This document shows positions 2,056 to 48,112 of a stretch of DNA of 64,000 nt, piece by piece. The DNA is from a bacterium. Its GTDB lineage: Bacteria > Pseudomonadota > Alphaproteobacteria > SP197. How positions within the stretch are numbered: the stretch's first letter is position 1; every line of letters starts with the position of its first letter. The DNA is taken from NCBI GenBank assembly GCA_028821455.1, contig JAPPGE010000090.1, positions 58,868-122,867 on the forward strand, written 5' to 3'. Under the pieces are notes generated by a model. The model saw only the letters and a list, made by a program, of their open reading frames with translations, made no database searches and was not told the origin of the DNA. The translations under genes and the position numbers were made by a program.

Positions 2056-2310
2056 ATGTCGCAGGATAACAGAAGACTACACTGGGCCAAGACGTCCCGC
2101 CTTACCTACTGGGTGCTGGCGCTCTGGCTCCTGTTCGGATACGTGTTTCCGTTCTTTGCCAAGGATCTCGACGGCGGTTCGTTCCTGGGGTTCCCGCTCG
2201 GTTACTACATGATCGTTCAGGGGTCGCTCATCGTGTTCGTTCTGTTGATCGTTGGTCACAACTTCCTGCAGGACCGCATCGATGAAGAATGCGGCCTGAG
2301 TGACGAATGA
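2056..2310 (+). CDS. DUF4212 small membrane protein, symporter small subunit
   Basis: An 84-residue protein with two membrane helices (about residues 17-36 and 48-66), the length and layout of DUF4212 (the small partner of VC_2705-type sodium/solute symporters). Its start at 2056 has a good ribosome site (GAAGGAGG) upstream. The symporter gene begins 10 bases after its stop, and this pairing is the family hallmark. The role is inferred to be assembly or regulation of the symporter in the inner membrane. The N-terminal motif HWAKTSRLTYWVL is typical of the family. Confidence 0.88.
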   Translation: MSQDNRRLHWAKTSRLTYWVLALWLLFGYVFPFFAKDLDGGSFLGFPLGYYMIVQGSLIVFVLLIVGHNFLQDRIDEECGLSDE

Positions 2311-2320
2311 GGAGGGTGCA

Positions 2321-4138
2321 ATGAGCGATCAATCACAAGGAACCCGTTTCGTCGACCGTCTGGGCAAGGTTTACGGAATCTACACTCTTGGATTCCTGGG
2401 TTTCTTTGCCCTGATGGCAATTGTCGAGCAGCTTGGCGCAAGTGCCCAGCTGATCGGCATCCTCTTCCTCCTGTTCACCATTGCGATCTACGCCACGATC
2501 GGCTGGCTCTCGCGGACCATGCAGGTCGATGCCTACTACGTTGCCGGTCGGGAGGTCCCGGCGTTCTACAACGGCATGGCGACGGCCGCGGACTGGATGT
2601 CCGGTGCGTCCTTCGTCGCCCTGGCGGGAGGCATCTACTTCGGTGGCTATCCCTATCTTGGCTTTGTCATCGGCTGGACGGGCGGTTACGTGCTCGTCAA
2701 CGCGCTGATGGCGCCCTATCTCAGGAAATTCGGCTGCTACACGGTGCCCGACTTCATCGGCACCCGTTACGGGGGCAATCTGGCACGGTTCTGCGCCGTG
2801 GTGGTGCTCGTGGTCGCGTCGTTCACCTATGTGACGGCGCAGATCAACGCGACGGGCACGATTGCCGCCCGGGCCCTTGCCATACCGTTCGAGTTCGGTG
2901 TGTGGTTCGGACTCCTGGGTATCCTGCTGTGTTCGATGCTGGGTGGCATGCGTGGCGTGACCTGGACACAGGTGGCGCAGTACATCGTCCTTATCATCGC
3001 CTATCTGGTGCCCGTGATCTGGATGTCGAATGCCCAGGGCTTCGGCATCATTCCTCACTTCACCTATGGCGACGCGACAATTCGCATTGCCGAACTCGAG
3101 GCCCAGTACGGACTCGAGGCGGCGGCTCAGGCCGTGGCCGGGCTGAGGGTCCTGACAACACCCCACTTCGATCCGCAGGGTGGACTGGATTCTTGGAAGT
3201 TCGTGACTCTTGCCTTCTGCATGATGGCGGGCACGGCCTCCTTGCCGCACATCCTCATGCGCTACTTCACGACGCCGTCAGTGCGTCAGGCGCGCAAGTC
3301 GGTGGGCTGGTCCCTGTTCTTCATCTTCCTGCTCTACTTCACGGCGCCGGCACTGGCGACCCTGACCAAGCTCCAGCTTCTCGATCCGAATCTGGCAACG
3401 GCGGTGGTCGGCAAGGCGATTGACGACGTCTCCAATCTCGAGTGGATCAGGAACTGGACCGAGGTCGGCATGCTGTCGGTCGTCGACCAGAACGGTGATG
3501 GCATCGTCCAGCTCAACGAGTTCTTCATGAGGCCCGACATCGTAGTGCTGGCTACACCGGAGATTGCCGGTCTGCCCTACGTGATTTCGGGACTCGTGGC
3601 GGCCGGTGGCATGGCCGCGGCGATGTCGACTGCCGACGGTCTGCTGCTGGCGATGGCCAACGCGCTGAGCCACGATCTCTACTACAAGATCATCGATCCC
3701 AAGGCCGACACGAAGCGTCGTCTGATTGTCGCCCGTGTCCTGCTTGTGGGAATCGGTGCCCTCGCAGCCCTGATCGCATCTCTGCAGCTCACGGGCATTC
3801 TGGGGGCCGTGGCATGGGCCTTCTGCTTCGCTTGCTCGGGCCTGTTCTTCCCGCTGGTTCTGGGAATCTGGTGGAAACGCGCCAACAGACCAGGGGCGAT
3901 TGCAGGCATGGTTGCCGGTTTTGTGGCAGGGACGATCTACCTCATCCACGTGTACAACGGCGGTGACCAGCTGTGGTCGATCGACCACCTCCGGTTCGGC
4001 ATGATCGGCATGCCTGTCTCGCTGGTGGCGATGGTCGTGGTTTCACTGATCACCGAAGCACCGGATGCCGAGATGCAGGCCATGGTGGATGAAACCCGCA
4101 TTCCGACGGGTAAGCCGATCTTGGCCGAAACGCACTGA
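2321..4138 (+). CDS. Sodium:solute symporter, VC_2705 type (acetate/organic acid permease-like)
   Basis: A 605-residue, roughly 13-helix member of the SSS family that imports a small organic solute with sodium. The start is placed at ATG 2321, directly behind GGAGG at 2311-2315; an in-frame GTG at 2300 lies inside the previous gene and is less likely. N-terminal family motifs are clear (YYVAGREVPAFYNGMATAADWMSG, GGY..LGFVIGW), as is the later AAMSTADGLLLAMANALSHD segment. An EF-hand-like loop (DQNGDGIVQLNEF, about 3485-3523) sits in a soluble insertion. It resembles acetate permease ActP, but the VC_2705 branch has its own small subunit (the upstream gene); the substrate cannot be read from sequence. 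Confidence 0.9.
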   Translation: MSDQSQGTRFVDRLGKVYGIYTLGFLGFFALMAIVEQLGASAQLIGILFLLFTIAIYATIGWLSRTMQVDAYYVAGREVPAFYNGMATAADWMSGASFVALAGGIYFGGYPYLGFVIGWTGGYVLVNALMAPYLRKFGCYTVPDFIGTRYGGNLARFCAVVVLVVASFTYVTAQINATGTIAARALAIPFEFGVWFGLLGILLCSMLGGMRGVTWTQVAQYIVLIIAYLVPVIWMSNAQGFGIIPHFTYGDATIRIAELEAQYGLEAAAQAVAGLRVLTTPHFDPQGGLDSWKFVTLAFCMMAGTASLPHILMRYFTTPSVRQARKSVGWSLFFIFLLYFTAPALATLTKLQLLDPNLATAVVGKAIDDVSNLEWIRNWTEVGMLSVVDQNGDGIVQLNEFFMRPDIVVLATPEIAGLPYVISGLVAAGGMAAAMSTADGLLLAMANALSHDLYYKIIDPKADTKRRLIVARVLLVGIGALAALIASLQLTGILGAVAWAFCFACSGLFFPLVLGIWWKRANRPGAIAGMVAGFVAGTIYLIHVYNGGDQLWSIDHLRFGMIGMPVSLVAMVVVSLITEAPDAEMQAMVDETRIPTGKPILAETH

Positions 4139-4165
4139 CGCATCGTTGAAGACCCTTTTGTTACA

Positions 4166-4193
4166 GGGGGGCGGACAGAGATGTCCGCCCCCC
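4166..4193 (+). terminator. Strong hairpin terminator after the symporter
   Basis: A perfect 12-bp stem, GGGGGGCGGACA (4166-4177) with TGTCCGCCCCCC (4182-4193), closes on a GAGA loop. It lies 28 bases after the symporter stop. There is no real T-run, so it may end transcription with help from other factors or protect the 3' end of the mRNA. Confidence 0.75.
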
Positions 4194-4228
4194 TTGCCTG
4201 TTCATGACATCCTGGGAGCCGTAGACCG

Positions 4229-4600
4229 ATGACCAGCCTGGCGGCTGTTCTCCCCTGGTGGGTGGTGGGCCTCGACTACATCCTCGGCGCCATCATGTGG
4301 ACGCTGATTGGCCGTGCGGCCATGAACATCTTTCTTCCCGTGACATCCGACTTCTTCTTCATGCGGGCGTTCGTCATGCTGACCGACCCGGTCCTGAAGG
4401 TCTTCCGGCCGGTGACGCCGGGATTTCTCATCGACCCGGTCGTGCCGCTGTTCGTAGCCTGGTTCTTCTTCTTGTTCCGTTTCTATGCCATGCCCTGGAT
4501 CCTCGGGTATTCGGTGCTCGGCATGCTGTCCTTCCCCCTCGAGGGAGAAATCGCCGCCATCCTCTACGATCTCTTCGGTGGCGGATTCAGCGGTTCCTGA
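4229..4600 (+). CDS. Conserved small inner-membrane protein
   Basis: A 123-residue hydrophobic protein with about three membrane segments (residues 7-28, 66-84 and 88-110). It has a distant look of the YggT family in its FRPVTPGFLIDPVVPLFVAW stretch, which recalls the YggT loop between helices. The assignment is weak and no catalytic residues are visible. It follows the symporter operon after the hairpin at 4166 and is six bases ahead of the next hypothetical gene, so those two are probably one transcript. Confidence 0.7.
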   Translation: MTSLAAVLPWWVVGLDYILGAIMWTLIGRAAMNIFLPVTSDFFFMRAFVMLTDPVLKVFRPVTPGFLIDPVVPLFVAWFFFLFRFYAMPWILGYSVLGMLSFPLEGEIAAILYDLFGGGFSGS

Positions 4601-4606
4601 GGAACC

Positions 4607-5158
4607 ATGGCCGGGGAGAATGCCCTGCGTGACGCGTTCATGGCCTGGCAGTGCCTCATCCGCCAGCACGCCATGCGCAGGGAGAACGGGCGTCCCTCGA
4701 GTGCCATGACACCCCGTGTCGTCCTCTCCGACGGAAGCGAGGCAGGTCACATCCGGACCGTCCTTCTCGAGAGGGAGCCGGCCGCCTCGGCGGCTCTCTT
4801 TCGTCAGACGGTCTCGGGCACCCACGATCCCCGGGAGCGCTTCGAGAAAGGGCTGAAGCACCTGGCGGCCACCTATTTCCAGACATCGCGGGAATTCGAG
4901 CCGCGGCTCTTCGCCCAGTTCTCCCGGCAGTCACCAGGCGCGGCCGCCCTCGTTGCCGCCGGCAGCGCAACACTCCATTTCGATCAGTTCAGCCAGTCCT
5001 GGATCCTGCCCTGCGAGATTCAGGACCTGCCGGGTGACGATCCCTTCGCCACGGCACTCTTCTGGCACAATGCCCTCTTCGCCCCGCCTCCCGCAGCGAC
5101 ACGCGCCCTCGCCTTCCTCCCCGACTGGCACTCAGCCACGGCCGAACCTCCAGTGTAG
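4607..5158 (+). CDS. Hypothetical protein linked to small membrane protein
   Basis: A 183-residue soluble protein with no motif that I recognise. It has a hydrophilic N-terminal half rich in Arg and Glu, and an Ala/Pro-rich C-terminus. It begins six bases after the stop of the membrane protein gene, suggesting co-expression. The gene ends shortly before the decayed toxin gene on the opposite strand, so this marks the right border of the symporter neighbourhood. Confidence 0.6.
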   Translation: MAGENALRDAFMAWQCLIRQHAMRRENGRPSSAMTPRVVLSDGSEAGHIRTVLLEREPAASAALFRQTVSGTHDPRERFEKGLKHLAATYFQTSREFEPRLFAQFSRQSPGAAALVAAGSATLHFDQFSQSWILPCEIQDLPGDDPFATALFWHNALFAPPPAATRALAFLPDWHSATAEPPV

Positions 5159-5181
5159 GCGATTGCCTTGGAAGGGGCCTT

Positions 5182-5506
5182 TCAGCGAATCTCGATCCGT
5201 ACCTCACCTGCTGCCAGGGCGGCATCAATCTCCCCGAGCAGTGGAGCCAACCGGGTCGGGAGGGCGGCATTGGTCGTGTTGCCGAAACGCAGCCAGAGGA
5301 CCTGCAGGCCCGGCGGCTGCCGCGCTCGCTCGGGAAGTCCACATCCTTGGACCACATGACGGCGCGTCTGTCGCGCGCCCAGACCTCGATGCGCTCGTCT
5401 GTCGCCATACCAAGGCCGACGTCATTCACGTGATTGCGGGAGTGGCCTCGGTTGTAAGCCGTTACGCCAGATCTGGCGGCAGTCGCGCATGGATCAGATA
5501 ACGCAC
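5182..5506 (-). pseudogene. Decayed DUF5615 (PIN-like) toxin
   Basis: Reading from GTG 5506 gives VRYLIHARLPPDLA and then a stop at 5462-5464. The match to DUF5615 resumes in another frame (HVNDVGLGMATDERI, AVMWSKDVDFP) and shifts again near 5310-5340 into LQVLWLRFGNTTNAALPTRLAPLL, ending at a TGA at 5182-5184. DUF5615 proteins are PIN-like toxins of about 110 residues, normally encoded right after a DUF433 antitoxin. The gene begins four bases after the stop of such an antitoxin here. At least two frameshifts make it non-functional as written. A sequencing error could explain one shift, but two make decay more likely. Confidence 0.8.
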
Positions 5507-5509
5507 GAA

Positions 5510-6043
5510 TCAGGCAGCAAACATCACACGATGATCCACCACGCCCGCAGCCCACTCCAGGGCCGCGATGAGGTCCGCCTCATCGAGATTGGGATAGTCG
5601 TCAACAATCTCCTCCAAGGACACACCGGACGCCATGAGTTGCAGGATGTCGGACACCCGGACTCGGGTGTTCCGGATATGCGGCCGTCCAGCACAGATCG
5701 ACGGATCGATGACGACCCGGCCCGAGGCCTGGGCAACACTTTCCGCATGATCGAAACCTTCGGCCAGAGGTTCGATACCCGACACGTCAACTTCTTTGGA
5801 TGCCGCAGCCATGTCATAGTTTGTTTGCATGTTCATCCAGTAGGCCGGGGTTGTGTTGAAGGCACGGGCAAGGCGCAGGGCCGTGTCAGGCGTCATGCCG
5901 GTGACACCCTTCACAAGCCGCTCGATCCGCGTGCGAGGAACGCCCAGACGGCGGGCCAGTGCAATCACTCCCATGTCCAGCGGATCAAGGTAGAGTTCCT
6001 TCAGGACCTTGCCGGGATGCATCGGTTCTTCAAGCATGCTCAT
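5510..6043 (-). CDS. higA: HigA-type antitoxin fused to a DUF433 antitoxin domain
   Basis: A 177-residue protein with two antitoxin modules. Residues 1-95 form an XRE/HigA domain (MHPGKVLKEL.., HTH near 29-47, then TPDTALRLARAFNTTPAYWMN). Residues 105-177 form a DUF433 domain (VVIDPSICAGRPHIRNTRV, then SLEEIVDDYPNLDEADLIAAL). HigA represses its own operon and neutralises HigB; DUF433 domains neutralise DUF5615 toxins. Upstream by 12 bases is higB, and downstream by 3 is the broken DUF5615 gene, so the fusion once served two toxins. The linker (about 84-104) is acidic and probably flexible. The domain calls are firm; the double role is inferred. Confidence 0.88.
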   Translation of the reverse strand: MSMLEEPMHPGKVLKELYLDPLDMGVIALARRLGVPRTRIERLVKGVTGMTPDTALRLARAFNTTPAYWMNMQTNYDMAAASKEVDVSGIEPLAEGFDHAESVAQASGRVVIDPSICAGRPHIRNTRVRVSDILQLMASGVSLEEIVDDYPNLDEADLIAALEWAAGVVDHRVMFAA

Positions 6044-35742: not shown

Positions 35743-35899
35743 CTCTGCGCTCTTATGAGGGGCATCTCTTTCAAGCGATGGCCTTGTTGTGATTGACAGC
35801 ATGGTTACCTCTCCTGAGTTCATTCTTCCAGGTGGCCTTGAGAGGCGGTTCGGCGTCTGGTGTTGCCGGATCGAAATGCGTTGGCACCGGTCGCGCCGT

Positions 35900-36600
35900 G
35901 TGGCGGGCCCTGGTGGCCGGCATGGTTTTTCAGCACCCCTTCATCAAGGCTCTCCTGAGCTCAACCGCAACCCGGCCCTGCTCGATGCCTGCGGTTTCCA
36001 TCCCGTGCCGACGCGAGGCCGGCGCAAGCGCTTCCGGGATCCGCAGACCGGGGTCATCCACATCATTCGTCCCCCCGGTACGTTCGTCGATTCCCTCGAA
36101 CTGGAATGTCTCGCGCTTCGTCGCCTCCCCGCTCAAGGGTTGAAGAGGAGGAGGGGCCGCTGTCCGAGATGATCGTCGAGCTGCGTCGTCGCCTGATGGA
36201 CCTCCTTCCCGAATTCGGCGCCCATCTGGGCTGCGACGGCACGGTGGTCCCGAGCAAGTCGACGGGAACGGCGTCGGATCGGGATGCCGACCGGGACCGG
36301 CACGAGACCAAAGGCGTGACCGTCAAGGCAAGGCCTTGACCAAGGTCAAGATGTGGTTCGGCTACACCCTTCACCTGATCGCCGACGCCACCTACGAGAT
36401 CCCCGTGGCGGCGGCAGTGACGAAGGCTTCGGCGTCGGAGGTAACGACTCTCGAGACGCTGCTGAAGGACGTGTTCGAGGACACTCCGGACCTGGCCTTG
36501 CGCTACCAGGACATGAGCGCCGAGCGGGGCTACCACAGCACCCGACATCCCGCGCCACAACGCCAAACCGGTCGCCTGACGCCGGTGCCGGAACCCGCGA
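35900..36600 (+). mobile_element. Remnant of a DDE transposase (IS1182/IS4-like)
   Basis: Pieces of a DDE transposase can be read in three frames. HPFIKALL at about 35930 shifts into ELNRNPALLDACGFHPVPTRG. MIVELRRRLMDLLPEFGAHLGCDG follows at about 36168, and then WFGYTLHLIADATYEIP and VTKASASEV at about 36350-36440. The segment stops near SAERGYHST; the C-terminal half is absent. Several frameshifts make it inactive. No terminal inverted repeats were located. It adjoins the left break of the decayed hydrolase copy and ends just upstream of the LacI-PfkB operon promoter. Confidence 0.75.
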
Positions 36601-36770
36601 CAGGCGACTCACCAGTGTGTGCAAAACCCGGCCCATGGGAACCTTCCAGGACAAGACTTCAATGGACCGCATCCTCTACGCAGTCTTCATCCACGAAAAC
36701 AAATCTCAGGGAATCAGTACCCCAGTCTCCCTGACACATAACTCTTGACGTCACCCGCAAATTGGGTCTC

Positions 36771-36800
36771 TTGACGCAAGCCGGTCCCGCAGGCGACAAT
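36771..36800 (+). promoter_or_regulatory. Sigma70-type promoter of the LacI-PfkB operon
   Basis: -35 TTGACG (36771-36776), an 18-base spacer, and -10 GACAAT (36795-36800). It lies 45 bases ahead of the likely GTG start and abuts the palindromic operator. Confidence 0.55.
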
Positions 36801-36804
36801 TTCG

Positions 36805-36820
36805 ATTGAACGGGTTCAAT
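36805..36820. promoter_or_regulatory. 16-bp LacI-type operator palindrome
   Basis: ATTGAAC-GG-GTTCAAT is a perfect inverted repeat with 7-base arms. It begins 5 bases after the proposed -10 box, so a bound repressor would cover the transcription start. LacI-family sites are short palindromes of this size. Confidence 0.65.
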
Positions 36821-36844
36821 TTGCCCGCCCCGGAGCGTTTGCGA

Positions 36845-38050
36845 GTGGAACAACCGACGATTCGCGAGGTTGCAAAATTGGCCGGCGTCGCTGTCGGCAC
36901 GGTGTCCAATGTGCTGAATGGATCGGCCACCGTCCGCGATTCGACCCGCGCGAAGGTGGAAACCGCCGTGCAGCAACTCGGTTTCAGGCCCGACGCCGTC
37001 GCCCGGTCCCTGAATCTGCGGCGCGGGCGCCGCAAAACCGTCAAGGCGACCGTCGGGCGGCCCCGTCTCTCGACGGTTGGTTATGTCAGCGTCGACTATA
37101 CGGCCCGTGTCGACCGGTTTCCCGATAGCGGCGAGAGAACGACATCGCATGGGATCAAGAAGTCGCTGGGCGGTCCGGCGGCGAACGTCGCGGTCATGGC
37201 CGCAGGTCTCGGCGGGCGCTATGCGCTCAATTGCGAGCTGGTCACCGCGGTCGGCAGCGATCCCGACAGCGAATGGGCAGTGGTCGAGTTGGCCAATCGC
37301 GGGGTAAGGACCATCACGGTGCATCCCTATCGTGGCGGCCGCCTCAGCCGATGCATCGTGCTTGTCGACGCAACTGGCGCGCGCACGATCGTTAACGAAC
37401 CGCTTGAGCTCGACCTTGAGGAATTGAGCCGATATGTCGGCAGTACCGGCCCTGCGCGTGAACGCCATTGTCTGCATATCGAGGGTTTCCAGGTGCCCAA
37501 CGCGATCGGCTGGCTCGATGACGAACGAACGTGGCACCTGACAACCAGCGTCCACGCGACGGGACTGCCTGTGGAATGGCACACCGTGGAGGGACTGGGC
37601 CTCCTTCTCGAGAAATTCAATCTGGTCTTCCTCGACCTGGAGAGTGCCCGCGGCATCGTCGACCATGACGAGGGGGTGGATGTGGTCGTGTCGGATCTGG
37701 ACCGCGCCTTCCGGCGGCTGGCGCCGACGCGCAGGGCTCGACTCATGGTCGTTACGCTGGGAGCGGGAGGAGCGCTGATCGATTCACTGGACGCCCGGCC
37801 GTCGAGAATTCACGTCGATCCGATCTCGGTTGTCGACACCACTGGCGCCGGCGACGCCTTCGTCGGTTGCTTTCTGGCCGCCTGGCTCAATGGCGATGAT
37901 CCTCTCGCGGCCGGACGAATGGCAACGCGCGGCGGCAGGCTCGCCGTGGCCCAGGAGGGCGCCCAGGGCGCCCACATCACCGCGGAGATGTTGGTCGACG
38001 ACGACCTTCGCGGATTCGACCTGCGTGTCGAGCGGTTGCAGGAAGCCTGA
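36845..38050 (+). CDS. LacI-type HTH domain fused to a PfkB-family sugar kinase
   Basis: A 401-residue fusion. Residues 4-26 are a LacI helix-turn-helix (TIREVAKLAGVAVGTVSNVLNG) followed by the hinge-like RPDAVARSLNLRRG. From about 76 on it is a ribokinase-family kinase (GGPAANVAVMAAGLGG; catalytic DTTGAGDAFVG near 331-337). The sugar-binding domain of normal LacI regulators is missing, so the kinase itself would sense the sugar. GTG 36845 has GGAG upstream and fits LacI starts; the TTG at 36806 lies inside the operator. It begins the operon, three bases before the ATPase gene. Autoregulation by phosphorylatable sugar is inferred. Confidence 0.85.
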   Translation: MEQPTIREVAKLAGVAVGTVSNVLNGSATVRDSTRAKVETAVQQLGFRPDAVARSLNLRRGRRKTVKATVGRPRLSTVGYVSVDYTARVDRFPDSGERTTSHGIKKSLGGPAANVAVMAAGLGGRYALNCELVTAVGSDPDSEWAVVELANRGVRTITVHPYRGGRLSRCIVLVDATGARTIVNEPLELDLEELSRYVGSTGPARERHCLHIEGFQVPNAIGWLDDERTWHLTTSVHATGLPVEWHTVEGLGLLLEKFNLVFLDLESARGIVDHDEGVDVVVSDLDRAFRRLAPTRRARLMVVTLGAGGALIDSLDARPSRIHVDPISVVDTTGAGDAFVGCFLAAWLNGDDPLAAGRMATRGGRLAVAQEGAQGAHITAEMLVDDDLRGFDLRVERLQEA

Positions 38051-38053
38051 CCG

Positions 38054-38836
38054 ATGCCGGCGCTTCGCATGTCGAGGATCGTCAAGAGGTTCGGTGGCAT
38101 CCTGGCGCTTGACGGCGTTGACTTCGAAGTCAATCCCGGCGAGGTCATGGCGCTTGTCGGCGACAACGGGGCCGGCAAGTCGACGCTGATAAAGATCCTC
38201 GCCGGCGCCTACCAGGCCGATGCCGGCACGATCACCCTCGACGGCGCACCGGTGGAATTCAAGAGCCCGCAGGACGCCTGGAACCGGGGCATCGCGACCA
38301 TCTATCAGGAACTCGCCCTGACCGGGAAGATGATGATTCCCGACAACATCTTTCTTGGCCGCGAGCTGAAGCGTCGCGTCTTCGGCGTGAGCTTTCTGGA
38401 TCGCCGCGCCATGCGCGAGCGCACCAAGCAGTTGCTGAGCAGTCTCGACGTCCAGGTTCCGAGCCTCGATGTTTGGGTTGAGCTCCTGTCGGGCGGGCAA
38501 CGCCAGGGCATCGCCATTTCCCGCGCACTCAACATCGACGCGGAACTCATCGTGATGGACGAGCCGACGGCCGCCCTCGCTGTCGCTGAAGTGCGCAAGG
38601 TGCTGCAGTTCATCCGACGGCTTCGCGAGCAGGGCAAGTCGGTGATACTGATTTCCCACAACCTGCAGGACGTGTTCGCTGTATCGGACCGTATCACTGT
38701 CCTGCGCCAGGGCCGCCGTGCGGGTGTGCGCGAGACCCGGCACACCACTCCCGAAGAGATCATCGGGCTGATCACCTGGGCTTCGACGGCCGAAGATGAC
38801 CAGGAGACACCCTTTGAGGGCCTTGGCGCGGCGTAG
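38054..38836 (+). CDS. Sugar ABC transporter ATPase, single-domain (FrcA/RbsA-like)
   Basis: A 260-residue ATPase with Walker A GDNGAGKST, Q-loop YQELAL, signature LSGGQRQGIAISRA, Walker B LIVMDEPTAALA and switch ISHN. RbsA-type ATPases usually have two such domains in about 500 residues; this one has a single domain, like FrcA of fructose importers. In the Walker B region the D-loop reads ALAVAEV. The gene follows the LacI-PfkB fusion by three bases and should drive the permeases at 39938-41883. Confidence 0.9.
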   Translation: MPALRMSRIVKRFGGILALDGVDFEVNPGEVMALVGDNGAGKSTLIKILAGAYQADAGTITLDGAPVEFKSPQDAWNRGIATIYQELALTGKMMIPDNIFLGRELKRRVFGVSFLDRRAMRERTKQLLSSLDVQVPSLDVWVELLSGGQRQGIAISRALNIDAELIVMDEPTAALAVAEVRKVLQFIRRLREQGKSVILISHNLQDVFAVSDRITVLRQGRRAGVRETRHTTPEEIIGLITWASTAEDDQETPFEGLGAA

Positions 38837-38881: not shown

Positions 38882-39865
38882 ATGAACCTTTTCAAGACTA
38901 CCATCAGCGCCTTGGCCCTGATTGCAACCACGTCGATGGCGGCAACGGCACAGGACAAGCCGCAGGTCGCGTTCATTCCCCAGATCGCCGGCATTCCCTA
39001 TTACGTCGCGATGCGCGAAGGCGCCGATCGTGCCGCGGCAGAGCTGGGTGTAACGTACGTCCAGGAAGGCCCGACCAGCACCAACGCCGTCGACCAGCTG
39101 CGTATCTTCGAGGGCTTCGTCAATCAGGGTTTTGATGTGATCGCGATCTCGCCGCTGGATGAGGAGAGCCTCAAACCGGCGATCGCGAAGGCGCGCGAAG
39201 CCGGCATCATCATTCTGACGTCGGATGCCGACGCTCCCGGGAGCGACCGCCAGTACTTTGTGGCCCAGGCGCTCGACCGCGACCTCGGCTATACCCTGCT
39301 GGACGAGGCCGTGGCGCGTGTCGGCGATGCGGGCAAGATTGCCATCGTCTCGGACTCGCCCACGATCCAGAGCATGCAGAACTGGATCGCGGCGATCAAG
39401 GAGCGCGCCGAGACCACCTATCCCGGCATCGAGATTGTCTCGGTCGATCACACCGACGGCACGGCGGCGCGCGCCTATCAGTTCGCGACCGACGCGATGA
39501 CGCGACATCCCGACCTCAAGGCCGTCCTTGGCATGGCTTCGACGACCTGTCCGGGTATCGCTCAGGCGGTCGAGGCGGCCGACGCCATCGGTCATGTGCT
39601 CAGCGCCGGCTATTGCTCGCCAAATACGGCGCGCGAGTATATTCACAGCGGCGCGATGCCCTATTCCGTTCTGTGGAACCCTTCGGATCTGGGTTATCTG
39701 ACCGTCTGGATCGCAGACCATCTCCTTAAGGGCGGCGAGATCACCGGTACGATGGATGTTCCCGGACTGCCGGCACCGGCGACTTACCTGCCCGAGACCA
39801 ACATCATACTGCTCGGCCCGCCGGCCGTGTTTACGCCGGAGAACGTTGACGATTTCGATTTCTGA
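38882..39865 (+). CDS. Periplasmic sugar-binding protein (RbsB/LsrB/RhaS-like)
   Basis: A 327-residue periplasmic-binding protein type 1. The Sec signal peptide is clear (MNLFKTTISALALIATTSMAATA then QDKP). The mature part shows the family flow VAFIPQIAGIPYYVAMREGADRAA, GFDVIAISPLDEESL and KAVLGMASTTCPGI. Closest look is to rhamnose and AI-2 binding proteins, but pocket residues cannot be assigned. A ribosome site (GAAAGGA) precedes ATG 38882. It captures the operon's substrate. Confidence 0.92.
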   Translation: MNLFKTTISALALIATTSMAATAQDKPQVAFIPQIAGIPYYVAMREGADRAAAELGVTYVQEGPTSTNAVDQLRIFEGFVNQGFDVIAISPLDEESLKPAIAKAREAGIIILTSDADAPGSDRQYFVAQALDRDLGYTLLDEAVARVGDAGKIAIVSDSPTIQSMQNWIAAIKERAETTYPGIEIVSVDHTDGTAARAYQFATDAMTRHPDLKAVLGMASTTCPGIAQAVEAADAIGHVLSAGYCSPNTAREYIHSGAMPYSVLWNPSDLGYLTVWIADHLLKGGEITGTMDVPGLPAPATYLPETNIILLGPPAVFTPENVDDFDF

Positions 39866-39937: not shown

Positions 39938-40918
39938 ATGGCCCCGGTAGGCGCTCCCGACGGGTTCCTCGCCGGCCCGCGTCGGGCGGTTCCGCGCGAG
40001 GTCATCCTGATGGTGGCGATCATTGCCGTAGGCACCCTGTTCGCGACTCAATCGGAGTTCTTTCTGACCGAACGCAACCTGGTCACGGTGTTGCGCAACT
40101 CGGTGGACCTCGCCGTGATCTGCGCGGGCATGACACTGATCATCATCATGGGTGGCATAGACGTGAGCGTCGGCGGCATCCTGGCGGTTTCCGCGATATT
40201 CATCGGTCACTCCTACAAAGCCGGGCTCCCCGATGAAGTTGTTGTCCCGATCGGCATCGGCGTGGCGACCATGCTCGGGGCCCTCAATGGCGTGATTGTC
40301 GCCAAAGCGCGGGTTCCGCCCATCATCGCGACCCTGGGCACGATGTACGTGTTTATTGCGGTCTTGTTTCTCGTGATCGGCGGCACCTGGATTCATGGGC
40401 TGCCCGATACGCTATCGTTCCTGATCCGCGGCGAATTCGTTGGCATACCGGCCGGCGTCTTCATCATTGGCTGCGTCTACGGGTGCTGCTGGGTCCTCTT
40501 GCGATGGCAAGCCTGGGGACGCCATCTATGCGCCATCGGCTGCGACGAGGGCTCCGCCCGTCTGGTAGGAATCAACATCGACCGGGTGAAGATCCAGGCC
40601 TACGCTCTGACCGGTGCGCTGGCCGGAATCGCCGCCGTGCTGTACGTCGCCCGGCTGCGCAATGTCGAAGTCAACATCGGCACCAACATCGCGCTCGAGG
40701 CGATTGCGGCGACCGTTCTCGGCGGCGCCGATATTCGCGGCGGGACCGGCAGCCTGATCGGTGCACTGATGGGCGTGATCTTCATCAAGCTGGTACAGAA
40801 CGGACTGGTTCTGATCGGGGTCTCGTCCCTGTGGGAGACCGTCGTGATCGGCGGGCTGCTGATCATCGTCCTCACCCTTGATGCTCTCGAGACCCGGCGC
40901 TCGGGGCGGCCGACATGA
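39938..40918 (+). CDS. ABC transporter permease, RbsC/LsrC type
   Basis: A 326-residue CUT2-family permease with about nine to ten hydrophobic segments. Family motifs are MGGIDVSVGGILAVSAI, VIVAKARVPPIIATLGT and VLGGADIRGGTGSLIGALMG. It forms the channel with the next permease; use of two different permeases recalls rhamnose and AI-2 importers. Its stop overlaps the next start (ATGA). Located in the inner membrane. Confidence 0.92.
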   Translation: MAPVGAPDGFLAGPRRAVPREVILMVAIIAVGTLFATQSEFFLTERNLVTVLRNSVDLAVICAGMTLIIIMGGIDVSVGGILAVSAIFIGHSYKAGLPDEVVVPIGIGVATMLGALNGVIVAKARVPPIIATLGTMYVFIAVLFLVIGGTWIHGLPDTLSFLIRGEFVGIPAGVFIIGCVYGCCWVLLRWQAWGRHLCAIGCDEGSARLVGINIDRVKIQAYALTGALAGIAAVLYVARLRNVEVNIGTNIALEAIAATVLGGADIRGGTGSLIGALMGVIFIKLVQNGLVLIGVSSLWETVVIGGLLIIVLTLDALETRRSGRPT

Positions 40919-41883
40919 ACGAGCGCCGTTTGCGAGATCCGTTACGCCGGCGGCTGCTGTATCTGCTCGGCCTGTGGGCGGCGTGCCTCATCACCAGCAG
41001 CCTCATCTCGCCCCACTTTCTCCAGCCGAGCACGCTGCCGTTCCTGCTCCAGTACGTGCCGATCCTCGGCCTTCTCGGGTTGGGGCAGACGCTGGTCATG
41101 CTCGCCGGTGGGCCCGGCATCGACCTGTCGGTCGGGGCCTCGCTGTCACTTTCGGGCCTCGCCATGGCATGGCTGTTCAGCCTTGGCGTGGACATCTATA
41201 TCGCGTGCCTCGCCGGCATCGTTCTGGGCGCGCTCCTGGGCTCGGTGAATGGGATTCTGATCACCGTACTCGGCATACCCTCGCTGATGGCCACCTTGGC
41301 GACCATGTTCGGTTTCGGCGGACTGGCCCTCGCGCTGACCGGCGGTACACCGATCGGCGGTATCCCCGATTCGTTTGCCTGGCTCGGGCAGGGCCGGACA
41401 CTGTCGATTCCGAATCACTTCTGGGTGTTGTTCGTGCCGATAGCAATTATGCTGCATGTTCTACTGGCGCACACAGCGATCGGCAGTCACATCTACGCCG
41501 CCGGCAACGACGAGCGCGCGGCCTATTTGTTAGGCGTCAAGGTCCGGCGTCTTCGCTTCGGGCTCTACGCGCTCAACGGCGTCCTCGCCGCGATCGGCGC
41601 GGCCATGATGCTGTCGTGGTTCCAGGCCGCACGCCCGGACGCCGGTCGAGGCATGGAGTTGTTGTCGGTCACGATTGCCGTGCTCGGAGGCACCCATATC
41701 TTCGGTGGACTCGGCCGCGTATCGGGCACGGTCGTCGCGATCATGATCGTGGCCACACTCCAGGTCGGACTCCAGCTGGCGAACATCTCCCACGCATGGC
41801 AGTTGGGCGTGATCGGCACATTGCTGGTCGGCAGTGTTGTGCTGGACAATCTTGGCACGCTCAAGCGACTCCGCGCCGGATGA
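40915..41883 (+). CDS. ABC transporter permease, RbsC/LsrD type
   Basis: A 322-residue CUT2-family permease. It has the same motifs as its neighbour (GGPGIDLSVGASLSLSGL, GILITVLGIPSLMATLAT, VLGGTHIFGGLGRVSGTVVA) in a second gene copy. The two differ enough to be long-separated paralogues. Its end overlaps the kinase start (ATGA). It would build a heterodimeric channel with the protein at 39938. Confidence 0.92.
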   Translation: MNERRLRDPLRRRLLYLLGLWAACLITSSLISPHFLQPSTLPFLLQYVPILGLLGLGQTLVMLAGGPGIDLSVGASLSLSGLAMAWLFSLGVDIYIACLAGIVLGALLGSVNGILITVLGIPSLMATLATMFGFGGLALALTGGTPIGGIPDSFAWLGQGRTLSIPNHFWVLFVPIAIMLHVLLAHTAIGSHIYAAGNDERAAYLLGVKVRRLRFGLYALNGVLAAIGAAMMLSWFQAARPDAGRGMELLSVTIAVLGGTHIFGGLGRVSGTVVAIMIVATLQVGLQLANISHAWQLGVIGTLLVGSVVLDNLGTLKRLRAG

Positions 41884-42818
41884 CTACAGGTTTTCTTTGC
41901 GTTGGCGATCTTGACATCGACCTGATCGTGTCGGTGGCGCACCTGCCGGGTGCCGACGACAAGATCTTCGGGCGTCGCATCTGCCAGGCCGTCGGGGGAA
42001 TGGCCGCGAATGTCGCGGTCGGGCTGCGCCGCCTCGGCGCCGAGGCACGCCTTGCCGCGGCGATCGGGGACGACGAACCGGGCGAGGTGGCGGAGCGGGC
42101 CGTGGCCGGAGCGGGTGTCGACACGAGTTTCTTGGTCCGACGCAAAGGCGATGCGACGTTCATGTGCCTGGTCCTCCTGGGTCCCAACGGAGAGCGGTCT
42201 CTTGTCCGGCTGGAGACGGGCGCGTATCTGCCTCAGCCCGACGAAGTGCCGGTCGCCGCCTTCGCCGGAACCCGGCACGTGCACCTCACGATGGGCAGCG
42301 AGGCGCTGGCGCGCCACTGTGTCGCACGGGCCCGATCGTCGGGCGCCTCTGTATCGCTGGATCTCGAGAAAGCCGACCTGCCGGACGATCCGTCGAGCCT
42401 GGTCGACCTTCTCCCCGCCATCGACTGGCTGTTTCTGAACCGGCACAGTCGCGATCATGTGGAACAGGTGCTGGGCCCGCTGGTCCTCAGGCAGGCGTCT
42501 TGCGTGATTACGACCGACGGTTCGGCCGGCTGCCGCATCGAGCGCGGTGACTGCCGGGTCGAGGTGGCGGGACACAAGGTCAGCGTCCGCGACACCACCG
42601 GGGCCGGCGACGGACTCGTCGCCGCCTTTTTGCATGGCCATCTCGTCGCCGGCCTGTCCGAGACCGAAGCGCTGAGCAGGGCCAACGCCGCGGCCGCTCT
42701 TGTGGTCCAGCGTTACGGCGCGCAGGCCGGACTGCCGACAGGCGACGAGCTGGATCGGTTCATGCGACAACAAGGGCCCGATCGCGACCGAGTGACGTCC
42801 GCTGAAGGTCATGACTGA
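41880..42818 (+). CDS. PfkB/ribokinase-family sugar kinase
   Basis: A 312-residue kinase. The N-terminal sugar-binding signature is GGMAANVAVGLRRLGAE, and the catalytic site is DTTGAGDGLVAAF at about 238-250. It should phosphorylate the imported sugar with ATP in the cytoplasm. This is the second PfkB domain in the operon, the other being fused to the LacI HTH. The stop overlaps the next gene by 8 bases. FrlD of Amadori-product catabolism and ADP/ATP-dependent ribose-1-phosphate kinases share this fold. Confidence 0.92.
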   Translation: MTTGFLCVGDLDIDLIVSVAHLPGADDKIFGRRICQAVGGMAANVAVGLRRLGAEARLAAAIGDDEPGEVAERAVAGAGVDTSFLVRRKGDATFMCLVLLGPNGERSLVRLETGAYLPQPDEVPVAAFAGTRHVHLTMGSEALARHCVARARSSGASVSLDLEKADLPDDPSSLVDLLPAIDWLFLNRHSRDHVEQVLGPLVLRQASCVITTDGSAGCRIERGDCRVEVAGHKVSVRDTTGAGDGLVAAFLHGHLVAGLSETEALSRANAAAALVVQRYGAQAGLPTGDELDRFMRQQGPDRDRVTSAEGHD

Positions 42819-43797
42819 GCGCCGCCGCGTTTATGCCGAGCGTATCCGCGCTCTGGGATTGTCGACTCCGGACGAACGCACGATGCACCTCCTGTGGCAG
42901 ATCGTGGACGGGGGCGCGCTCGGCGCCAGCCTTCACGTGCGCCTGACCCTCGAGTTGCTGACCCATCTGATGGACTCGGCCGACGACCCGACCGAGGGCT
43001 GGGCACGGACCTCCTGCGCCGGCGACTTCATCGCCGGGACGCGGGGCTCCGAGGCGCCGGTCATCGCGAATTCCATAGGTCGGGTGCTGCGCGGTCTGAA
43101 TCGGATGGCGGCCGCGGAGCGGCGAGTAGAACTCGGCCGGCGAGCCGGGCGGTGGCAGGAGGAGGCGGAACGGCGGCACGCGCGCCTTGTCGACACCGCG
43201 GTCAGGGTGATCGGTCCCAATCGTCGCGTCATTGCGTTCGACTATTCGAGCACGGTCGATGCGGTGGTCGTGAGGTTGGCGGCGACGGCACCGCCACGGC
43301 AGGTGATCGTGCCGGAGAGCCGTTCTCTCGCAGGGGGACGGCGCTATGTGGAAGCGTTCACGGCAGCGGGTATCCCCGTCCACTACGTCGTCGACGCCGC
43401 CTTCGAGCACATTCTCGGCGACGACACGGTCATTCTGCTGGGGGCCGAGAGTCTGCAGCGCGACGGCAGCCTGATCAACACCATCGGCAGCCGACCGCTG
43501 GCGCGGCTTGCCCGGTGGCGCGGCTGTCCGGTCTATGGCTGCGCCGACCTGCTGAAACTCGACCTGCGTACCGGTGCCGTGTGCGCCGAACGCGTGCAAC
43601 GGGAATTCGATCATCTGCTCAAGGGTATCGAACTCCCGAACGGCGCCGTCGTCACCACCGCAGTGCCCGAGCTCGAGGTAGTACCGGCGTCGCTCATCAC
43701 CGCGATTCTCACCGACCGTGGGCCCGTTCCGCCGGCCTCCCTCGAAGATCTGGCGCAACGGCAGTGTTGCGAAGGAAAAGAGGACGGCGCCGCATGA
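42811..43797 (+). CDS. eIF-2B alpha/MtnA-fold protein, possible sugar-phosphate isomerase
   Basis: A 328-residue protein with the IF-2B fold. C-terminal signatures are ILLGAESLQRDGSLINTIGSRPLA and CPVYGCADLLKLDL, with VIAFDYSSTVDAVV and VIVPESRSLAGGR in the middle. In MtnA and ribose-1,5-bisphosphate isomerase a Cys and an Asp catalyse; here those places read YSST and GAES (Glu), closer to eIF2B-type regulatory members. It may still bind a sugar phosphate. It overlaps both neighbours, the kinase by 8 and the SIS gene by 4 bases, so it is a true part of the pathway. Confidence 0.82.
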   Translation: MTERRRVYAERIRALGLSTPDERTMHLLWQIVDGGALGASLHVRLTLELLTHLMDSADDPTEGWARTSCAGDFIAGTRGSEAPVIANSIGRVLRGLNRMAAAERRVELGRRAGRWQEEAERRHARLVDTAVRVIGPNRRVIAFDYSSTVDAVVVRLAATAPPRQVIVPESRSLAGGRRYVEAFTAAGIPVHYVVDAAFEHILGDDTVILLGAESLQRDGSLINTIGSRPLARLARWRGCPVYGCADLLKLDLRTGAVCAERVQREFDHLLKGIELPNGAVVTTAVPELEVVPASLITAILTDRGPVPPASLEDLAQRQCCEGKEDGAA

Positions 43798-44912
43798 GCG
43801 ACACCATGCGCCGCGAAATTCACAGTCAACCCGGGTTGGTGGCCGAGATCCTGCCCAGGCTGCGCCAGGCGACGACCGGGCTCGACGTGTCCGCTGACCG
43901 GATATGGGCTGGCGGATGCGGTGACGGCGCCCTTGCCGCTGGCGCGGCGTCGGCGCTGCTGGCGGAGACCGACGCCGAGTATCGGCCGGCCACAGCTCAC
44001 GAGCTGGCTTTCCACGCGCCCGTTCGGGGGGGCGATCTGGTCGTGCTTGCTTCCATTTCGGGCAGCACGCGGCGCACCGTGCAGGCCGCGCGCAAGGCGC
44101 GAAGCGTGGGTGCCGACACGCTCGCGCTCACCTGCAATCCGGACAGCATGCTGGCCGCCGCGTGCAAGAAGACGCTGGTTCTGCCGTTCCAACCTCTGAG
44201 CCGGCGAACGCCACACACCGCGGACTATCTCGCAACTCTGGTCGCGCTGGCGGTTCTCGCGGAGCATCTTCGGCGACAGCGCGACGAGATCCTGGACATC
44301 CTGCCGGTCATCATTCGCGACACGCTCGCCAATGCGGAGGCGCTGGCGGCGAACCTGGTGCGTTCCTTCAACCCGGCAGGCAAGCTGTTTGTCTTGGGGC
44401 AGGGCAGCAACCTCTATACGGCCCGATACATTGCCGCCAAGTTCCACGAGTCCGGGGGATTGGTCGCGCTGGCGGCAGAGACAGAGGATTTCGTTCACGG
44501 CGTGAACTTCATGGCGGAACGCGAGGACCTGTTCTGCGTGATCGGCGGCGACGGCCCGGGAGCGTTCCGGGCCCTGGAGCTGGTCCCCGGCTTGACGCGG
44601 CTCTGTGATCGGGTCGTGCTGGTCGGCAACACGCCGAACACCTTCGCCGCCGTGGTACAGTTCGAGTATCCGGCCGTGCGTCCGGCCATGACGGTCTTTC
44701 CCTCTGCTGTTGCCGGACAGATTCTCTGCCTCGCGGTCGCCGAAGCTCTTGGCCTTGCGGTCGAGATGCCGCGTGCGGGTCGAGCGGCGGGTGCGCTGCA
44801 TGCGGAAGTGCAGCGCGGATGGATGACCGGTACTTCAGACACGCTTACCGACACCCGTGACCGCGGGACTGCTCGCTCGGTGTCCGGAGGTGGCAAGCCT
44901 TCCGCCGAGTGA
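43794..44912 (+). CDS. Double SIS-domain sugar isomerase or deglycase (AgaS/FrlB/GlmS-like)
   Basis: A 372-residue protein with two SIS domains. The first has ISGSTRRTVQAARKAR and the second has LGQGSNLYTARYIAAKFHESG. The GlmS-type helix motif appears as TEDFVHGVNFM. Such enzymes isomerise aldose/ketose phosphates or remove amines from sugar phosphates, as FrlB and SocB do for Amadori compounds. Start ATG 43794 overlaps the previous stop. It is the last gene of the operon. A 30-residue Arg- and Ser-rich tail follows the fold. Substrate unknown. Confidence 0.85.
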   Translation: MSDTMRREIHSQPGLVAEILPRLRQATTGLDVSADRIWAGGCGDGALAAGAASALLAETDAEYRPATAHELAFHAPVRGGDLVVLASISGSTRRTVQAARKARSVGADTLALTCNPDSMLAAACKKTLVLPFQPLSRRTPHTADYLATLVALAVLAEHLRRQRDEILDILPVIIRDTLANAEALAANLVRSFNPAGKLFVLGQGSNLYTARYIAAKFHESGGLVALAAETEDFVHGVNFMAEREDLFCVIGGDGPGAFRALELVPGLTRLCDRVVLVGNTPNTFAAVVQFEYPAVRPAMTVFPSAVAGQILCLAVAEALGLAVEMPRAGRAAGALHAEVQRGWMTGTSDTLTDTRDRGTARSVSGGGKPSAE

Positions 44913-45356: not shown

Positions 45357-46631
45357 TCACAGGGGTTCGAGGCCGCACCAGTCGGCGATGAAGCGGGCGA
45401 TTGCGCGGGTGACTTGGCGGCACGAGTCGAGACTGACCCTCTCGTCGAAGCCGTGAATGTTCTCGGCAAGGGGGCCATAGACGAGCGCGGGGATGCCGGC
45501 ATAGAGACCGAAGAACCGGGCGTCGGTGGTGCCGGTGAGAGAGCGTGTTTCAAGGTCCTCGCCGAAGACGTGCCTGTGGCTCTCGGCAAGCACGGCCTCC
45601 GCATCGCTTCCCTCTTCGAGAACATACCCCTCTGCCTGGAACCCGTCCCACACGACCTCCGGCGGATTGTTAGCAAGGAAGGCGTCGTCGCGGGCGGCCC
45701 GTGCGATGCAGTCCTCGACCTCGCCGCGGGCCTTAGCGAGATCGGTTCCGGGAAACACGCCCACTCTCATGTCGAAGCGGCACCAGGCCGGAACGCTCGA
45801 CGCCCAGTCTCCGCCCTCGATGCGGCCGACATTGAAATTGAGCGGGTGGGTCATGCCGGCATAGCGTTCGTGACCGACGGCGTTCCACCTCTCCTCGAGC
45901 GCGTGGAGGGCGCCGACCAGGCGCCAGGCGGCCTCGATGGCATTGGCGCCGCTTCCGGCGTAGGCGACATGAACGGGATGCCCGCGCACGTGGCACTGGA
46001 ACCACATGACGCCGACCTGGGATCTCAACAGGCCATGGCCCAAAGGCTCGGGGATGAGTGCGGCATCGGCGTGGTAGCCGCGCTGGCGGCAGGCGAGCGC
46101 CCCGTTGCCGGTACACTCCTCCTCGATCACGGCCTCGATGGTGACGTCCGATGCCGGGCGAAAGCCGGCACGCTTGATGGCATCGAGGGCGAAGAGTCCG
46201 CAGACCCAGCCCGCCTTCATGTCGCCGGCGCCACGTCCGTGCATCCAGCCATCCTTCACCACGGGTTCGAAGGGGGGTGTCGACCACATGTCGTGCGGCC
46301 CTTCGGGCACGACATCGATGTGGCCGTTGATGATCAGGGAGCGTCCACCGGGGGAGGGGCTGCGCATCGCGCCGACGCTCACCCAGGCGTCGTCGTATCC
46401 GTCCAGTTTCGGCGAGTATCCCGGCAGGTCGCGAATGTCCTCGTTCCTGATCTGCCAGCGATCGACGGCAAATCCCCGTTGTGCCAGGGCGCGGGCGATG
46501 AAGTCCTGGGCGGTCGCCTCCCGTCCTCTCACTGAGGGCAGGCGTACGAGATCGCCGGTGAAGGCGACCTGTTCGTCAAAGCCCGCCTCGACGGCTGCGT
46601 CGAGCCGCGTTCCCGTATCGTTGTCGATCAT
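45357..46631 (-). CDS. M20-family metallopeptidase (ArgE/DapE-like deacylase)
   Basis: A 424-residue zinc hydrolase. Metal-binding motifs are [20 protein letters not shown] and the Glu-Glu pair in [10 protein letters not shown]; a late [12 protein letters not shown] holds the last His. The dimerisation lid lies between about residues 200 and 320. M20 enzymes cut amide bonds of N-acyl amino acids or small peptides. Start ATG 46631 overlaps the stop of the glpK-like gene. Coupling to a glycerol kinase-type gene is unusual. Confidence 0.88.
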
Positions 46632-48112
46632 GTGGTTCTCTCCACGAGTGTGCGCCGCACGGCATCCTGCCAGCCCTGGTAGAGCCTGTCGGCCTCGGCG
46701 CGCTCCATGGCCGGGATGAACCGCCTGTCGCCCTGCCAGGAGCTGGCGAAACCCGCCATGTCCGGCCACACGCCGGCCTGATGTCCGGCAAGCCAGGCGA
46801 CGCCGAGTGCGGTCGCCTCGACGTTCGCCATGCGGTCGACCGGCATGGCGAGGATGTCGGCAAGAAACTGCATGGCGATGTCGTTGGCGCTCATGCCGCC
46901 ATCGACCCGGACGACTGCGTCGTCGCCGAAGGATGTCTGGTCATCAAGCATGGCGCCGAGGAGATCGCGCACCTGGTAGGCGAGGCTCTCGAGAGCGGCG
47001 CGCACCAGTTCGGCCCTGCCGCTCGCTCGCGTGAGTCCATGGATGGCGCCGCGGCATTCGGCATCCCACCATGGCGCGCCGAGGCCGGTGAAGGCCGGTA
47101 CCAGGTAGGGCGTGTGAAGGGGGTCGGCAGCTTCGGCGAGTGCCGGGGTCTCACCGGCGTCGTCGATGATGCCGAGGCCGTCGCGCAGCCATTGGACGGC
47201 CGTCCCGGCATTGAAGATCGACCCTTCCAGGGCATAGCAGCGTTTGCCGGCGAGTTGCCAGGCGACAGTCGTCAACAGCCGCCTCTGCGAGACCACCGGC
47301 TCGCTGCCGATGTTGAGAAGGGCAAAGCAGCCGGTGCCGCAGGTCACCTTCATCATCCCCGGCCGGAAACAGGCCTGACCGATGGAGGCTGCCTGCTGGT
47401 CGCCCGCCACCCCGCGAATGGGGATGTTGCCGATCACCGAGGTGCCGTAGTCGCCGGCGCAGTCCCGCACGTCCGCCAGCATGGACTCCGGCACCCCGAG
47501 CAGACGGCAGAGATCGTCATCCCAGCGCCCTTCGTGGATGTTGTAGAGCATGGTGCGTGAGGCATTGGTGGCGTCGGTGGCATGGACCTCTCCGTCGGTC
47601 AGGTGCCACATCAGGAAGCTGTCAATGGTGCCGGCCAGAAGTTCGCCGCGCCCGGCGCGTTCCCTGGCGCCTTCGACGTGATCGAGAATCCAGGCGATCT
47701 TGGTGCCCGAGAAATAGGGGTCCGGCAGCAGGCCCGTGCGCTCGGCAATCATGGCGGTGTGGCCTTCAGCGGCAAGACGGCGGCACAGGCCGGAGGTCCT
47801 GCGGTCCTGCCAGACAATGGCCGGGGCGACCGGACGCCCGGTGGCGCGATCCCAGACGACCACGGTTTCCCGCTGGTTGGTGATGCCCATGGCGGCGATG
47901 GACGAGGGGGCGGCCCCGGACTCGGCCAACACCTTGCGCAGGACCTCGATGCTGGTTGCGAGGATGTCGTCGGGATCCTGTTCAACCCAGCCGGGCTGCG
48001 GAAAGCTTGACCTGGTTTCCGCACTTGCCTGGCAGACACCGCGCCGGTCGCCGTCGTGGAGAATGGCGCGACTCGACGTCGTGCTCTGGTCGAGTGCGAC
48101 AATGAATGTCAC
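46628..48112 (-). CDS. glpK: Glycerol kinase-type FGGY kinase
   Basis: A 494-residue FGGY kinase. It opens with [15 protein letters not shown], the glycerol kinase version of the phosphate-binding loop, and shows [40 protein letters not shown] and [19 protein letters not shown]. It makes glycerol-3-phosphate from glycerol and ATP. GTG 48112 is the start by family length; an out-of-frame ATG lies just ahead. No glpF, glpD or regulator adjoins. The M20 gene downstream is coupled. Confidence 0.88.

Follow-up and report, generated by a model that had tools for sequence, protein, structure and literature searches.

The window, by which we mean the whole 64,000-nucleotide stretch that was analyzed, carries a gene that joins a LacI-type helix-turn-helix (HTH) to a PfkB kinase domain. 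The encoded protein is probably (roughly 0.7) an autoregulatory repressor: it would act on its own operon for the uptake and catabolism of a sugar, and would be released when a ligand binds to its ribokinase-like domain. The fusion, its operon, the conservation of the putative operators and purifying selection on both domains were established by sequence analysis.

The fusion protein (401 aa) is encoded by one uninterrupted open reading frame, which starts at GTG 36845 and ends with the stop codon at 38050. The frame is already open from TTG 36806 onwards; GTG 36845 is the likely start codon, because TTG 36806 falls within the palindrome described below and because the homologues begin close to the HTH. 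The gene has the following features.

36845–38050, + strand: LacI-HTH/PfkB fusion gene (open reading frame, Pfam, homologues)
36857–36994, + strand: LacI-type HTH and first part of the hinge helix, residues 5–50 (Pfam PF00356, 3.4e-15)
36995–37066, + strand: remaining hinge helix (ARSL) and variable linker from HTH to kinase (alignment)
37067–37969, + strand: PfkB/ribokinase-like domain, residues 75–375 (Pfam PF00294, 1.4e-29; AF2 model)
37169–37174, + strand: Gly-Gly of the substrate-side motif GGPAANVAV, G109-G110 (alignment)
37634–37645, + strand: position of the NxxE motif, here DLES, D264-S267 (alignment)
37844–37855, + strand: GAGD with the catalytic Asp337 (alignment)

The PF00356 and PF00294 matches both exceed the Pfam gathering cut-offs, and the latter spans model positions 4–297 of 302, corresponding to a full-length PfkB domain. 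After the HTH, the Pfam scan detected PfkB only, and no periplasmic-binding-protein-like effector domain. The domain search thus bears out the sequence-only reading, according to which a full PfkB kinase replaces the sugar-binding domain of a LacI repressor. That reading had named a frameshift separating two genes as the finding that would speak against a fusion; no frameshift was seen, and the single reading frames here and in the homologues rule out this explanation. The recognition helix of the HTH has the sequence GVAVGTVSNVLNG, and its residues Gly18, Thr19, Ser21 and Asn22 are invariant in an alignment of 36 fusions. An AF2 model based on a six-sequence alignment had a pLDDT of 76.5, with linker residues 57–70 below 50 (an earlier model built from three fusions was poor, with a pLDDT of 56), and its fold matches that of E. 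coli ribokinase 1rka with a TM score of 0.81 by target length. Ribokinases are the best matches of the PfkB domain in both sequence and fold.

The fusion gene is the first gene of a tightly packed sugar ABC-transporter operon, which continues as follows.

38054–38836, + strand: sugar ABC transporter ATPase, RbsA-like, with a single nucleotide-binding domain (Pfam, NCBIfam)
38882–39865, + strand: periplasmic sugar-binding protein, LsrB/RhaS-like (Pfam, NCBIfam)
39938–40918, + strand: ABC permease 1 (Pfam PF02653)
40915–41883, + strand: ABC permease 2 (Pfam PF02653)
41880–42818, + strand: K2, a second, stand-alone PfkB kinase (Pfam PF00294, 5.2e-38; conserved in type I operons, see below)
42811–43797, + strand: IF-2B family sugar-phosphate isomerase, ribose-1,5-bisphosphate-isomerase-like (Pfam PF01008; TIGR00511 1.2e-21, below cut-off)
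43794–44912, + strand: SIS-domain sugar-phosphate isomerase/deaminase-like protein, last gene of the operon (Pfam PF01380, 6.1e-20; conserved in L058–L062)

The ATPase, with its one nucleotide-binding domain and 260 aa, differs from the double-domain RbsA/XylG proteins that it matched. K2, whose best NCBIfam match is ribose-1-phosphate kinase, adjoins the IF-2B protein (41880–43797); both matches are below the cut-offs, and the pair recalls the archaeal pentose-bisphosphate route.

In total, 44 full-length LacI-PfkB fusions were recovered, all from Alphaproteobacteria and each encoded by one reading frame. A scan of GTDB contigs yielded L001 and L002, which are 48–50% identical to the window fusion over nearly its full length, and plasmid records yielded fusions from Rhizobium and Roseivivax; Pfam confirmed LacI and PfkB domains in all six fusions scanned. 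Searches of whole genomes detected the fusion in the host itself but in none of the 15 relatives of the host's order that were covered. It is present in 1 of 385 genomes of a sample of the class, in 32 of the 146 species searched of one Rhizobiaceae genus and in 8 of 109 sampled genera of the Rhizobiaceae. Two further candidates were rejected: the Streptomyces match H12 is an ordinary LacI repressor, and L003 (Nocardioides) contains separate, adjacent LacI and PfkB genes as judged by tblastn.

The fusion genes reside in three types of operon. Type I (the window, L002 and L058–L062) consists of the fusion, ABC-transporter, K2, IF-2B and SIS genes. The gene order of the five Rhizobiaceae loci L058–L062 is exactly that of the window, and the L002 operon is the same as far as the L002 stretch extends, with an ATPase and a periplasmic sugar-binding protein that are 74% and 82% identical, respectively, to those of the window. 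Type II (Rhizobium L008, L009, L012 and L063–L065) consists of the fusion, GATase1-like, ABC-transporter and M20 deacylase genes, and contains no other kinase; 29 other loci of the Rhizobium genus (L015–L043), represented by short flanks only, were assigned to this type by sequence similarity and not by gene order. Type III (L001 and L010) consists of BtpA, ABC-transporter, fusion, ribokinase and TenA genes. At L063, a type III-like cluster of GATase, ribokinase, BtpA and TenA genes (2207–5572) is located just upstream of the type II fusion operon, and this adjacency suggests that the type II and type III pathways are linked. In the window, an M20 deacylase gene (45357–46769, − strand) is convergent to the operon, and its product shares 27% identity with the M20 deacylase encoded at the end of the Rhizobium type II operon.

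In a tree of the PfkB parts, all 20 sampled fusions form one clade, with a modest root support of 71, which is separate from K2, the ribokinases and E. coli YeiI and PsuK; the window protein is on a long branch (1.13). For a set of 32 loci, 30 from one Rhizobiaceae genus and two from Rhizobium plasmids, dN/dS was 0.15 for the HTH and 0.11 for PfkB, indicating purifying selection on both domains. By these comparisons, the LacI-PfkB fusion is a conserved family and not a local accident.

Upstream of the fusion gene in the window, two regulatory features were predicted.

36771–36800, + strand: sigma-70-type promoter TTGACG-18-GACAAT (consensus match)
36805–36820, no strand assigned: putative operator O1, ATTGAACGGGTTCAAT, an exact palindrome ATTGAAC-GG-GTTCAAT (core TTGAA-N4-TTCAA at 36806–36819)

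Both had been proposed before, as a −35/−10 pair and a perfect palindrome covering the expected start of transcription, and both held up. The pair is the only promoter-like match within 500 bp (shuffle mean 0.0). O1, at position −39 relative to the start codon, indeed covers the expected transcription start, and an equivalent site is present at the same place in homologous loci. Any perfect 7+2+7 palindrome occurred within 150 bp in 42 of 5000 shuffles, and TTGAA-N4-TTCAA, a motif that was defined from the homologues, appeared in 150 bp of shuffled upstream sequence from the window in 8 of 100,000 trials. The 4.36-Mb host genome contains only four TTGAA-N4-TTCAA sites, of which O1 is the sole one found at a plausible promoter. 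The sequence ATGAACCTTTTCAA, at the start of the binding-protein gene (38882), was considered as a second site and rejected as being within chance.

All 40 Rhizobiaceae loci examined contain TTGAA-N4-TTCAA about 30–45 bp before the start codon, and all 40 contain a second palindrome, TTGAA-N5-TTCAA, 85–137 bp further upstream. In the 32-locus set, TTGAA[AG]CGCTTCAA is located at −27 to −30 and TTGAAN5TTCAA at −161 to −165, about 134 bp above the first site, without exception; the eight additional Rhizobiaceae loci, five of which have the operon of the window, also carry both palindromes. When upstream regions were shuffled, a site match was obtained in 5 of 16,000 cases. In the Rhizobium homologues, a promoter-like pair, TTGA[CG]G-~17-TA[CG]CGT, directly precedes the operator (32 of 32 loci; consensus match). 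The 16-mer of the window had been proposed as a query for the upstream regions of homologues: its arms, the length of its 4-nt centre and its approximate position recur there, but the exact 16-mer does not. The operator centre is CG in all 40 Rhizobiaceae loci, as in canonical LacI/GalR operators, whereas the centre of O1 is CGGG, giving a middle step GG, a departure from the canonical centre that the sequence-only reading had not remarked on. As judged from these comparisons, the operator assignment of O1 is well supported.

Outside this set, the two operon starts of L001 carry TTGAAACGTTTCAT and TTTAAACGTTTCAA, and the only LacI-like site of L002, ATGAAACGTTTCAA, does not precede the fusion gene but comes after it, ahead of the transporter genes. 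In Rhizobium sp. T1473 (L011, 7989–8561; also in T1470), the fusion gene breaks off after ~156 residues and the operator is kept with one arm change. No second upstream palindrome was found in the window in a search that allowed up to two arm mismatches. A broken DDE transposase remnant (35750–36740) lies directly upstream of the promoter and may have displaced such a site; no full copy is present elsewhere in the genome, so the ends of the remnant could not be defined.

These data bear on two alternatives to simple repression. The protein might be an ordinary sugar kinase with a vestigial HTH, the palindrome belonging to another regulator, and RefSeq indeed names the homologues just “PfkB family carbohydrate kinase”. 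We consider this very improbable in view of the dN/dS of the HTH (0.15), the invariant residues of the recognition helix, and the linkage of operator and gene at 40 of 40 Rhizobiaceae loci and in two operon types. Alternatively, the fusion might be an activator, or a mixed regulator acting at two operators, which would fit the different spacing (N5) of the second palindrome at the 40 Rhizobiaceae loci. This is unlikely, as O1, over the predicted start site, occupies the classical position for repression and the window has no second site.

That the fused domain senses, and perhaps phosphorylates, an inducer, as the sequence-only reading had suggested, is a hypothesis. The intact GAGD site reported earlier is present in the window, and its catalytic Asp is invariant in all 44 fusions; GGPAAN is invariant in the 36 aligned fusions and G109 in 44 of 44. 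The Mg-linked Glu of the NxxE motif, by contrast, is missing from every one of the 44 fusions, and the degenerate motif of the window (DLES) had previously gone unremarked. The Asn of NxxE is kept in 38 of 44 fusions and is lost in six: the window (Asp), L010 (Ser), and L058, L059, L060 and L062 (Gly). This loss affects six of nine fusions whose operon encodes another PfkB kinase versus none of 35 of type II or presumed type II; with L058–L062 being related, leaving about three independent events, and with some of the 35 operons not read to their end, the association seen in these sequences is suggestive only. The NxxE motif is not strictly diagnostic of the PfkB family, since its Glu is also absent from the stand-alone K2 kinases.

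Under one explanation, the domain is a catalytically dead kinase that serves only as a ligand sensor, like ROK repressors that lost kinase activity. The loss of the Glu from all 44 fusions and the pattern of Asn loss, few as the independent events are, point in this direction, whereas a pure sensor would not need a strictly conserved catalytic Asp, unless this residue binds a sugar hydroxyl; we regard the odds as about even. Under the other, the fusion is a NadR-like bifunctional enzyme-repressor, in which PfkB phosphorylates the incoming sugar and occupancy by substrate or ATP sets DNA binding. Conservation of the GAGD Asp, the GG motif and the ATP-side TLGxxG, strong purifying selection on PfkB and the lack of another kinase in type II operons are consistent with this, but the Glu is missing and the window and the other type I operons have a separate PfkB kinase, and we entertain this explanation only tentatively. 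The absence of the Glu from all fusions argues against ordinary kinase activity, though K2 also lacks it. In the window, the fused domain is more likely a sensor than a kinase, because the operon contains a separate PfkB kinase and the NxxE motif is degraded; in Rhizobium operons without another kinase, the fusion may be a bifunctional kinase-repressor.

Ribokinases close a lid upon sugar binding and form dimers through this lid, and LacI repressors bind a palindrome as dimers, through their HTHs and hinge helices. In the autoregulatory repressor that we favour, the PfkB domain would take the place of the classical periplasmic-type sugar-binding domain of LacI. The fusion would dimerize, probably via its ribokinase-like domains, so that a pair of LacI-type HTHs with their hinge helices sits on the 14-bp palindrome that covers the transcription start, and the bound dimer would block its own promoter. 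The second upstream palindrome of most relatives could permit looping or cooperative binding. Imported sugar, its phosphate or an ATP complex would then occupy the kinase pocket, and lid closure would alter the dimer such that the DNA is released and the transporter and catabolic enzymes are made. Several observations count against this explanation: O1 of the window has a GG centre and no second upstream site, the window protein is on a long branch of the tree, and in L002, whose operon is the closest match, the LacI-like site comes after the fusion gene. A different member of the LacI family in the same cell could instead bind O1.

The fusion shares with LacI/GalR repressors (RbsR, PurR, LacI) the LacI-type HTH with hinge helix and, at the promoter of a sugar operon to which the regulator's own gene belongs, a palindrome as putative operator, although its CG centre is kept in the relatives and replaced by GG in the window. 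It differs by having PfkB where these have a periplasmic-binding-protein-like effector domain. With PfkB kinases (ribokinase, sulfofructose kinase YihV, R1P kinase) it shares the fold, the GG motif and the catalytic Asp of GAGD, and differs by the N-terminal HTH and the missing NxxE Glu. In NadR and the ROK regulators NagC and Mlc, a kinase or kinase-derived domain is the effector part of a DNA-binding protein. The likeness to such regulators proposed by the sequence-only reading is apt as a functional analogy but does not extend to homology: their kinase folds are unrelated to that of the fusion and their HTHs are of other types. No ROK domain was detected in the fusion by Pfam, and no NMN adenylyltransferase/NRK domain by Pfam or among the 25 of 35 NCBIfam matches listed. 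An HTH-PfkB fusion as such is already known from E. coli YeiI, which has the same N-terminal HTH-PfkB layout (HTH_24 + PfkB in Pfam) and is listed as uncharacterised (PMC12506659). YeiI has a winged HTH of another family and GADD in place of GAGD, and is distant in the tree. We found no paper on a LacI-PfkB fusion in the open-access literature; the proteins are already in databases.

If the favoured explanation is correct, an enzyme fold very different from the sugar-binding domain with which it is usually paired can drive a LacI head, and the fusion would be a natural template for kinase-driven repressors. Uncharacterised sugar-transporter operons, common in one Rhizobiaceae genus, would also gain a regulator and a putative operator. 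As some of the three operon types include a second kinase and others do not, they would offer a natural experiment on the change from enzyme to sensor. More speculatively, and in our estimation rather unlikely, the fusions could be one-protein switches of Alphaproteobacteria in which an active PfkB consumes its own inducer and drives the LacI head, so that induction would read sugar flux and not sugar level, with the fused domain decaying to a pure sensor where a separate kinase is present.
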